Source: a virus. From it: a DNA stretch of 20,327 nt. Position numbers and translations under genes: made by a program. Below, in pieces: positions 19,421 to 20,133 of this stretch (position 1 is its first letter; each line of letters opens with the position of its first letter). The notes under the pieces are model-generated. The model saw only the letters and a list, made by a program, of their open reading frames with translations, was not told where the DNA came from and made no database searches. Location: the IMG/VR virus record IMGVR_UViG_3300028829_001240, positions 1 to 20,327 of that record; one strand, 5' to 3'.

Positions 19421-19657
19421 TTAAGTTTGTGATCTGTTCCAGATTGCATATAGAACCCAAATAGCGATCAAGCCCATTAGACCTTCAGCGCCTAGAGTAC
19501 CAAGCATACCGCTTACGTTAGCGACTACACTTGTTTCAGGGAAAAAGGGGATAGCCCCAAGACCTAGTACTTCTACTACGATCATCAAAGCTGCAATACT
19601 GATACCCACATCAGCGAGATTGCTTGCCCACGATTTTACCTTTGTTAGAATTTCCAT
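19421..19657 (-). CDS. Two-helix inner-membrane protein (holin-like size)
   Basis: This is a 78-residue protein with two predicted membrane helices, VGISIAALMIVVEVLGLGAI (about 17-36) and EGLMGLIAIWVLYAIW (about 58-73). They are separated by a loop with PFFPETSVVANVSG, and basic residues lie at both ends (MEILTKVKSWAS, NRSQT). Size and layout fit a class II holin or a small phage membrane effector; no direct family match is known to me. AAGGGAA lies before the ATG at 19657. It begins about 25 bases behind the end of the tmRNA coding piece, so tmRNA processing may release this message. Confidence 0.6.
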   Translation of the reverse strand: MEILTKVKSWASNLADVGISIAALMIVVEVLGLGAIPFFPETSVVANVSGMLGTLGAEGLMGLIAIWVLYAIWNRSQT

Positions 19658-19679
19658 ATGTTTCGTTCCCTTAGTTGTT

Positions 19680-19851
19680 AATCTGCTACTTTTCTGTTGC
19701 TAGGTAAGTAGCCAACCCCCTGTGTTATGCAGCTAGTGCGTAACCAGATGGTGCAAAGTTATCGTTTGCATTTAGTTTGTTGACCTAATATCGTCAGTCA
19801 CCACGGTAAACTCCACTTCATTTTCACACCTGTCGATCCTAGTTCGCTCCC
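19680..19851 (-). ncRNA. tmRNA coding piece
   Basis: The piece starts with GGGAGCG and AACTAGGATCGACAGG, like the 5' end of other tmRNAs (acceptor stem, then a D-arm-like part with TCGAC). The tag frame follows at 19769. Downstream of the stop, an H-type pseudoknot can be drawn at 19716-19685: stem 1 GTTG/CAAC (19716-19713 with 19699-19696) and stem 2 GCTACTT/AAGTAGC (19712-19706 with 19691-19685). TGTG in the 5' part pairs with CACA of the acceptor piece as helix P2. The exact 3' end is unknown. Confidence 0.85.
19725..19769 (-). other. tmRNA proteolysis tag frame, ANDNFAPSGYALAA-stop
   Basis: Fourteen codons plus TAA read ANDNFAPSGYALAA. The ANDNFA start and the ALAA end are typical proteobacterial tmRNA tag features recognised by ClpXP/ClpAP-type proteases and SspB. 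The resume codon is GCA at 19769-19767. Confidence 0.88.
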
Positions 19852-19853
19852 AG

Positions 19854-20037
19854 CATAAGCACATTATATTCTTGTATCTTCTGATACTACATATACAGTC
19901 ATATATGGTTTCTTTTTAGTTAAAGCGATTGCTTTATTTTCTAGGTGTTCTTTATTTTTGCTTCTTGCCTTAACAAAGATTTTATCACCTGCTTTAACAA
20001 CCATTTTATACTTCATAAATTCCTCAATGTGCTTATG
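19854..20037 (-). repeat. 12-bp perfect inverted repeat enclosing the tmRNA intervening segment
   Basis: CATAAGCACATT (minus strand, 20037-20026) is the exact reverse complement of AATGTGCTTATG (19865-19854). In RNA the 12-bp helix stacks, across a 2x2 mismatch, on the 7-bp tmRNA acceptor stem, giving a nearly continuous 21-step hairpin whose loop is about 160 nt. It probably guides removal of the intervening segment. Confidence 0.85.
19864..20016 (-). CDS. 50-residue basic ORF inside the tmRNA intervening segment
   Basis: A 51-codon frame (ATG 20016, TAA 19866-19864) fills most of the loop between the two tmRNA pieces. A Shine-Dalgarno (GAGGA, 20025-20021) sits five bases before the ATG, directly beside the enclosing helix, and the stop overlaps the other arm. 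The product is basic, with 11 Lys and 2 Arg against 5 acidic residues. It begins MKYKMVVKAGDKIFVKARSK and ends with a beta-like YMTVYVVSEDTRI. It has no Cys, signal or membrane helix. I do not recognise it. An RNA-binding protein acting on the tmRNA, a small effector, or an insertion remnant are possible. Confidence 0.62.
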   Translation of the reverse strand: MKYKMVVKAGDKIFVKARSKNKEHLENKAIALTKKKPYMTVYVVSEDTRI

Positions 20038-20098
20038 GTGGAAGCGTTGGGTACTGCCCCCAAGTCCAGTATGTGTTCACGTTGCTTCAACGTTTACA
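20036..20098 (-). ncRNA. tmRNA acceptor piece
   Basis: From the predicted start near 20098, a 6-bp hairpin ACGTTG-AAG-CAACGT (20093-20079) comes first. It is followed by the P2 strand (ACACATACTGGAC), the T arm with loop GGCAGTA, the acceptor strand CGCTTCC, discriminator A and encoded CCA at 20038-20036. Encoded CCA and the G-U pair would allow charging by alanyl-tRNA synthetase. Confidence 0.85.
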
Positions 20099-20104
20099 GA
20101 TATA

Positions 20105-20133
20105 CTTATATCAAAAAAGGGGAGTATAGTCAA
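20105..20133 (-). promoter_or_regulatory. Sigma70-like promoter of the tmRNA locus
   Basis: The minus strand has TTGACT (20133-20128), 17 bases, then TATAAG (20110-20105), giving a start near 20098 just before the acceptor-piece hairpin. The promoter overlaps the terminator hairpin of the upstream gene. Confidence 0.72.

Follow-up and report, generated by a model that had tools for sequence, protein, structure and literature searches.

The window, by which we mean the whole stretch of DNA analysed here, is a virus record of 20,327 bases and carries on its minus strand a permuted (two-piece) tmRNA gene with an open reading frame (ORF) nested between the two tmRNA halves. The Rfam model RF04321 (tmRNA_permuted) matched it at 20097-19725 with 106.1 bits (E 3.5e-20, gathering cut-off 47), and the alphaproteobacterial model alpha_tmRNA gave 98.7 bits on the same tmRNA. 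The features of the locus are as follows.

19634-20129, minus strand: whole permuted (two-piece) tmRNA gene (ARAGORN tmRNA*, tag ANDNFAPSGYALAA; RF04321)
20105-20133, minus strand: promoter-like TTGACT-17 nt-TATAAG, directly upstream of the tmRNA 3' half (by eye)
20036-20129, minus strand: tmRNA 3' half with T arm, 3' acceptor strand and encoded CCA at 20038-20036; transcribed first (RF04321 alignment, sequence)
19852-20035, minus strand: intervening segment, 184 nt, from the CCA to the 5' GGG of the acceptor stem; not in the mature tmRNA
20026-20037, minus strand: 5' arm of the 12-bp stem, including the CA of the CCA, AATGTGCTTATG in plus-strand letters (sequence, fold)
20022-20025, minus strand: Shine-Dalgarno (SD) motif GAGG, just inside the loop, 5 nt before the ATG (sequence; predicted 0.79 unpaired)
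19864-20016, minus strand: nested protein gene, 50 codons and TAA, with ATG at 20016 and stop at 19866-19864 (ORF, homologues, dN/dS)
19854-19865, minus strand: 3' arm of the stem, CATAAGCACATT in plus-strand letters, overlapping the nested stop codon (sequence, fold)
19634-19851, minus strand: tmRNA 5' half with the 5' acceptor strand GGGAGCG; tag frame at 19769-19725 (ARAGORN, RF04321)

In the acceptor stem GGGAGCG pairs with CGCTTCC, the third pair is G-U and the CCA is encoded. A G3-U70 pair in the acceptor is an alanine determinant; in the loci collected by pattern scan the third acceptor pair was fixed by the pattern, so that a count of G-U there is uninformative. The tag frame ANDNFAPSGYALAA ends in small apolar residues. 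The preliminary description of this DNA had pointed to a perfect 12-bp inverted repeat with the nested stop overlapping one arm, and this is what the sequence contains. It had also proposed that the helix stacks on the acceptor stem, and in the folded RNA the acceptor stem and the repeat do form one long helix, interrupted by a one-base break on each side; the fold energy is -57.9 kcal/mol, with a z of -5.95 against 200 shuffles. A consensus promoter scan, in which a final T is required, did not call the promoter-like element. At 19421-19657 on the minus strand, immediately after the tmRNA, lies a frame for a 78-aa protein with apolar stretches and no PHROG match.

The nested 50-codon gene and its product

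A 50-codon ORF with a good Shine-Dalgarno had been claimed for the 184-nt segment, and both are there, GAGG standing 5 nt from the ATG. None of 200 dinucleotide shuffles of the segment reached the same ORF coverage (P 0.005). Relatives were found at 9 loci by sequence search and in 14 contigs by profile search, and two further contigs (L106 and L126) through the tmRNA pattern. The nine distinct proteins of this window family, the window included, show 54-98% identity to the window protein, are every one 50 aa long and have 20 invariant positions. For the 7 distinct sequences of the strict set (see below), which is without L006 and L020, the dN/dS was 0.15 when all pairs were taken and 0.14 with disjoint pairs, and the differences were distributed over the three codon positions as 12/13/46 (46 of 71 at the third, P 6e-8). 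Stops and frameshifts in this frame, which the preliminary description had named as evidence against coding, were sought in the relatives and none was found: all 14 profile-found loci match over residues 1-50, and there is no broken copy among the 35 fetched loci with a match (E 0.1), all full-length, several of these being the same contig fetched twice and the collection scan being blind to broken copies without its peptide patterns. In 15 of the 16 contigs besides the window the gene lies between the CCA and the mature tmRNA 5' end, and the ORF is present in tmRNAs whose T arms differ clearly. The homologues therefore keep the ORF at a dN/dS well below 1 and at a fixed place in the loop, as had been proposed for a check, and, as judged by sequence comparison, the window ORF is a protein-coding gene under purifying selection.

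RF04321 confirmed the tmRNA in four of the five window-family records tested. In the fifth, L006, the gene stands outside a tmRNA: the leader CACCATAAACACATTGAGG is retained in front of it, no tmRNA lies behind it and RF04321 has no match in the 28.5-kb record. Behind this gene (L006:2470-2700) there is a hairpin, GCCCTCT/AGAGGGC, with a run of A before it. No relatives of the window protein were found in 50,697 phage records, nor by profile in 84,980 bacterial and archaeal genomes. A 41-aa ORF in the permuted tmRNA segment of a Rhodobacteraceae MAG contig (L342, genome G003) showed weak similarity to the window family (hhalign probability 66); the G003 assembly has 8 RF04321 matches, which suggests that phage contigs were binned with the MAG.

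The window protein is predicted to be a beta-beta-alpha-beta miniprotein (pLDDT 93, pTM 0.69, from nine sequences). No Pfam match was obtained for it at E up to 10, and the PHROGs search gave no family match, with a best E of 0.11 for the window protein and of 0.022 among the nine family members. The best sequence match in the PDB (E 0.044 over 27 residues) was taken as chance. The fold searches gave no match at E <= 0.001: in BFVD, uncharacterised viral models of 50-60 aa resemble the window fold (TM ~0.8, best E 0.013), and all matches listed by Foldseek against the PDB had an E of 0.28 or higher. Structure comparison with the PDB found many small alpha/beta proteins weakly alike (best Z 5.8), with Z 4.3-4.7 to Dmd with LsoA, ATfaRel2 and T7 Gp2, values tied with many unrelated chains, and a Z below 8 may mean a shared arrangement only. 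The window protein is thus like T4 Dmd, ATfaRel2, T7 Gp2 and the BFVD miniproteins in size and predicted fold, but no sequence relation to any of them was found. Miniproteins of the Dmd, ATfaRel2 and T7 Gp2 kind have a toxin or RNA polymerase as target. SmpB is not among the 50 PDB fold matches listed, a short listing that excludes nothing. Family search and folding, also proposed earlier as a check, accordingly yielded a predicted fold which names no function, and no family. We infer that the product is probably an ordinary small phage accessory protein and not a tmRNA factor.

A group I intron with a homing endonuclease was considered and rejected for the window, where no intron family reached its Rfam gathering cut-off; an endonuclease (LAGLIDADG or other) in the window ORF was rejected on the same Pfam and PHROG results.

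Survey of long intervening segments

We scanned 2.9 million viral contigs for permuted tmRNAs with segments of 130-160, 158-188 and 189-219 nt. The collection scans used fixed tmRNA letters and covered lengths of 18-48 and 130-219 nt; the 158-188 and 18-48 nt scans gave at least 120 matches each, and the survey counts are to be read as samples. The long-segment scans yielded at least 193 loci with at least 133 distinct segments in at least 47 nucleotide clusters. Five of the 47 clusters, without stem or TGAT end, were judged by eye to be chance matches, and one of these five, which is GC-rich, passed the 70% mark used below. Among the matches listed, an ORF covers at least 70% of the segment in 34 of the 42 credible clusters; the other 8 are without such an ORF, which counts against the reading, developed below, of the loop as a docking site for small genes.

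A strict filter (acceptor at least 6/7 pairs, T stem at least 4/5) dropped 13 of the 47 clusters (4 coding, 4 non-coding and the 5 chance ones) and left at least 125 distinct long segments in 34 nucleotide clusters, L020 and L006 being absent. In this strict set, among the matches listed, an ORF reaching the 70% mark is present in 30 of the 34 clusters, and in 25 of the 34 the coverage has P <= 0.05 against 200 shuffles each, where 1.7 clusters are expected. It is practically inconceivable that these are chance ORFs in a non-coding spacer. Short ORFs are common in AT-rich DNA, and in shuffled segments an ORF fills 23-58% of the length on average; against chance stand this excess of significant clusters, the dN/dS, the fixed length and the third-position excess, and for the window family the chance explanation is refuted.

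By blastp the strict-set ORFs of at least 70% fall into 27 families, and into about 30 with the filtered-out ones (among the matches listed); a family here means no blastp match at E 0.001, and by eye the L067 protein resembles the MILDK family. Fourteen families have at least two members; their dN/dS was 0.00-0.39 in the 12 where it could be computed, with 2 saturated, and the third-position excess was significant (0.05) in 7 of the 14, the pair L029/L035 showing none. The layout of the 30 coding clusters is recurrent: the ORF starts 7-21 nt after the CCA in 28, the start is ATG in 26 and an SD-like motif is present in 22. The stop lies at -4/-5 of the mature 5' end in 14, mostly as the TGA of TGAT-GGGG, at -10 or before in 6, and inside the tmRNA 5' half in 10. 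In the MKNPL family (L026 and relatives) the ORF starts ~41 nt after the CCA, and segment bases 1-41 hold first an SD-like AAAGGAGAT and then a possible start in another frame, which may belong to a second, tiny ORF. The segment ORF of phage Melnitz belongs to the MFKWL family and is unannotated in the Melnitz record.

These comparisons indicate that many T4-related phages carry conserved small protein genes, and repeatedly different ones, in the excised tmRNA segment. As read from these sequences, the tmRNA loop has served phages repeatedly as a coding site. Nested genes of this kind, located as they are within an RNA gene, can escape annotation, as in Melnitz, and many small phage proteins become visible here, one family (MKNPL) alone counting 298 loci.

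That the nested gene simply overran a decayed tmRNA in these phages is highly improbable. Six loci (L406, L410, L422, L431, L432 and L408) combine the MKNPL ORF with a tmRNA 5' half but lack a nearby CCACCA on the upstream side, and ARAGORN found no tmRNA in 31 of the 125 long forms, a failure seen also in 24 of the 83 short forms (among the matches listed). However, at least 125 distinct long forms satisfy the acceptor (at least 6/7) and T-stem (at least 4/5) requirement, ARAGORN reads a tag in 94 of the 125 long and 59 of the 83 short forms among the matches listed, ending in A in 92 and 59, and the window tmRNA scores 106 bits with RF04321 against the cut-off of 47. The six loci without CCACCA may be half-lost or rearranged tmRNAs that keep the nested gene.

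Cellular tmRNAs were used as a control. RF04321 had matches in 133 of 142 alphaproteobacterial genomes; judged by eye, some nine-tenths of these spanned 190-260 nt, so that bacterial segments are usually short. Twelve cellular loci were chosen for their long hits: nine had segments of at least 100 nt, two were below 60 nt and one could not be parsed. Two of the nine, L342 and L345, look phage-like (AT-rich, with the same stem), with 1 and 2 Mosig-ORF matches, respectively. Three of the seven non-phage-like long segments (L340, L343 and L392) pass the 70% mark, which means that the mark alone is no proof of coding. The few long cellular segments examined are mostly G+C-richer than the phage segments.

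A conserved stem with exchangeable contents

The ends of the segments pair with each other. In the 34 cluster representatives of the long segments, 321 of 340 pairs form between the first ten bases and the bases before the last four, which are usually TGAT. With ends swapped between sequences the mean was 230 (maximum 251 of 1000 swaps), and slid registers gave 174-203. Stem positions 1, 5, 7, 8 and 9 each show several different pairs, that is, compensatory changes. The short segments, with a loop of a few bases, pair in the same register: among the matches listed, 362 of 427 pairs form in 61 distinct segments of at least 24 nt (swap control 265, maximum 290 of 500), and 50 of the 61 have at least 6/7 pairs, the other eleven not. 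In phage Mosig, TAAACACATTA...TAATGTGTTTAT is the empty form of the window-type stem.

Filled and empty loops occur at the same genomic locus. L269 and L326, whose segments measure 25 and 195 nt, respectively, share 90.9% identity along 2,498 bases upstream and 83.9% along 1,338 bases downstream; L073 and L274 are 92.7% identical over 273 and 88.6% over 2,084 bases, with segments of 158 and 35 nt. Homologues of gp33 or gp59 lie downstream in 60 of 118 coding and in 38 of 83 short forms (among the matches listed), which marks the same locus. A tree of the mature tmRNA parts, weak as it comes from an RNA of ~300 nt, required at least 60 content changes over 29 states, and 38 changes between short and long. 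The alignments show that loop content was gained, lost or exchanged repeatedly at one genomic locus, with the stem conserved and the place fixed.

What the loop carries bears on a further explanation, in which the 50-aa protein is a dedicated partner that binds tmRNA, SmpB or a processing enzyme and is for this reason kept in cis. The preliminary description had linked the protein to tmRNA maturation and suggested that it could bind tmRNA or SmpB, which was not supported: about 30 families without detectable blastp similarity (among the matches listed) occupy the one spot, several of them with an apolar stretch that by eye looks membrane-spanning, and members of some occur elsewhere. The MDWIT family, in the best 80 of 245 loci, was outside the tmRNA in 62, inside in 17 and unclear in one, and in phage Mosig its member (Mosig_00134, found by tblastn) lies beside baseplate genes. 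Some phages have a MEVIW-family gene inside the segment; Melnitz has one as a separate gene just upstream of the tmRNA, where gene 85 (L011:1238-1438) is 57% identical to MEVIW proteins carried inside the tmRNA elsewhere. These two genes, Melnitz gene 85 and Mosig_00134, were the tblastn matches in the phage records for the MEVIW and MDWIT representatives; of the seven representatives of other families searched in this way, these two included, five had none. L006, too, keeps the window gene with no tmRNA match in its 28.5-kb record. A dedicated partner would agree with the place of the window gene, fixed in 15 of 16 contigs besides the window, with the small, lysine-rich window protein, and with the MKNPL family, which was never found away from a tmRNA 5' half: in the best 80 of 298 loci this half stood directly behind the ORF in 80 of 80, and a CCACCA within 90 nt upstream in 72. 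For MKNPL a tie to tmRNA fits better than free cargo. Taken together, a dedicated partner is distinctly improbable for the window protein; that the peptide acts directly in tmRNA maturation is unproven.

Proposed expression of the nested genes and relation to known systems

We consider it likely, on the sequence evidence above, that the stem-loop of the phage two-piece tmRNA is a recurrent docking site for small genes, which would be expressed from the precursor. Only 19 nt separate the CCA from the ATG, which leaves no room for an own promoter, so that the window gene would be transcribed within the tmRNA precursor. In tmRNA processing RNase P acts on the 5' side, and the 3' end is trimmed at the CCA. 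The nested gene could be translated from the precursor, or from the released segment, since the cut-out segment of the window carries SD, complete ORF and stop; these two processing steps would then free the two tmRNA pieces. The transcription unit, translation in infected cells and excision of the segment are, in this docking-site reading, what the arrangement of the sequence suggests. The locus offers a natural experiment, a structured RNA carrying a messenger in its excised loop.

The preliminary description had further held that translation could control processing. In such a switch, translating the nested ORF would delay or gate the folding and processing of the tmRNA, with ribosomes binding the SD before the 3' arm is transcribed, and with pairing of the arm then shutting the SD and letting the tmRNA mature. 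In 17 of 34 long clusters, and in none of 64 distinct short segments, the first 12 nt, which belong to the stem, contain an SD-like motif; for the first 16 nt the counts are 22 of 34 and 3 of 64 (among the matches listed). With an SD-like motif in the stem in half of the clusters, translation could compete with folding, the window excepted. In folding predictions the mean unpaired probability of the SD was 0.11 for the full precursor; removal of the 3' arm raised it to 0.36, and a middle cut of equal length gave 0.10. Of the 22 clusters with an SD motif, 12 are predicted to gain more than 0.3 when the arm is removed (P 8e-4). Where the stop lies at -4/-5, in 14 of 30 coding clusters, the 3' arm includes the final codons, and proteins of different families have similar C-termini (VSL, VFF, KFF, ASF and the like; outliers VLL, VSS, FFW).

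The window itself stands outside this group, with its SD in the loop and a predicted unpaired probability of 79%. In L036, L011, L102 and L159 the SD is at +9 to +11 and 4-55% unpaired, and loss of the 3' arm frees the SD in none of these four nor in the window. Short segments also manage without any ORF, and SD pairing could be a by-product of fitting an SD into an obligatory stem. We regard the switch as unlikely. The broader picture of one transcript with two fates, in which nested gene and tmRNA would be coupled in many phages, early SD loading giving a messenger and arm-SD pairing giving tmRNA, and in which RNase P would turn frames running into the tmRNA into messages without a stop, seems to us quite unlikely. 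If such coupling were true, the peptide would be made only while tmRNA is scarce, and a feedback between ribosome rescue and a phage protein would be built in.

The intervening segment of split tmRNA genes is commonly treated as a spacer. The preliminary description knew of no tmRNA with a coding intervening segment, and we likewise found no published description of one in a search of mostly open literature, where an earlier mention is possible. In the accessible text of the 2025 tmRNA database paper, which covers 97,179 sequences, 79 of them from phages, the three places with the word "intervening" concern a tRNA-Ala, a repetitive element and a definition, and no protein gene (PMC11915505). 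The accessible text of the Melnitz paper describes a two-piece tmRNA and is without the word "intervening" (PMC9004378).

Set beside known systems, the window tmRNA follows the permuted tmRNA of RF04321 in the order of its parts, in acceptor and T arm, in the encoded CCA and the tag frame, and in an excised segment whose ends pair, and differs in that the excised segment has a conserved protein gene. Permuted tmRNAs are reported from Alphaproteobacteria, Cyanobacteria, some Gammaproteobacteria and marine phages such as Melnitz (PMC9004378), and the segment of Melnitz holds a different ORF from that of the window. The permuted transcript is cleaved by tRNA processing enzymes, according to the introduction of the database paper (PMC11915505).

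Between the docking-site reading and the arfA mRNA, which lacks a stop codon and whose product trans-translation keeps at a low level (PMC10107115), the likeness is an idea only. The frame passes the tmRNA 5' end in 10 of 30 coding clusters, and cutting there would leave no stop; unlike arfA, the window has its stop at 19866-19864, before the tmRNA 5' end, and its message is not a non-stop one.

Group I introns offer a second parallel, as homing endonuclease genes are found in 23 of 844 group I introns of tmRNA genes, in the T loop (PMC11915505), and are likewise protein genes in an excised part of a tmRNA precursor. Those introns sit in the T loop, whereas the window gene lies between the halves, without an intron and with a 50-aa product without family match. 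A further parallel is the permuted tmRNA of a nominally archaeal MAG with a tRNA-Ala gene inside its intervening sequence, called unique, another intervening sequence holding a repetitive element (PMC11915505). It too has a second gene in the intervening sequence, but the tRNA-Ala case is an RNA gene and unique, whereas the phage segments carry protein genes and do so recurrently.
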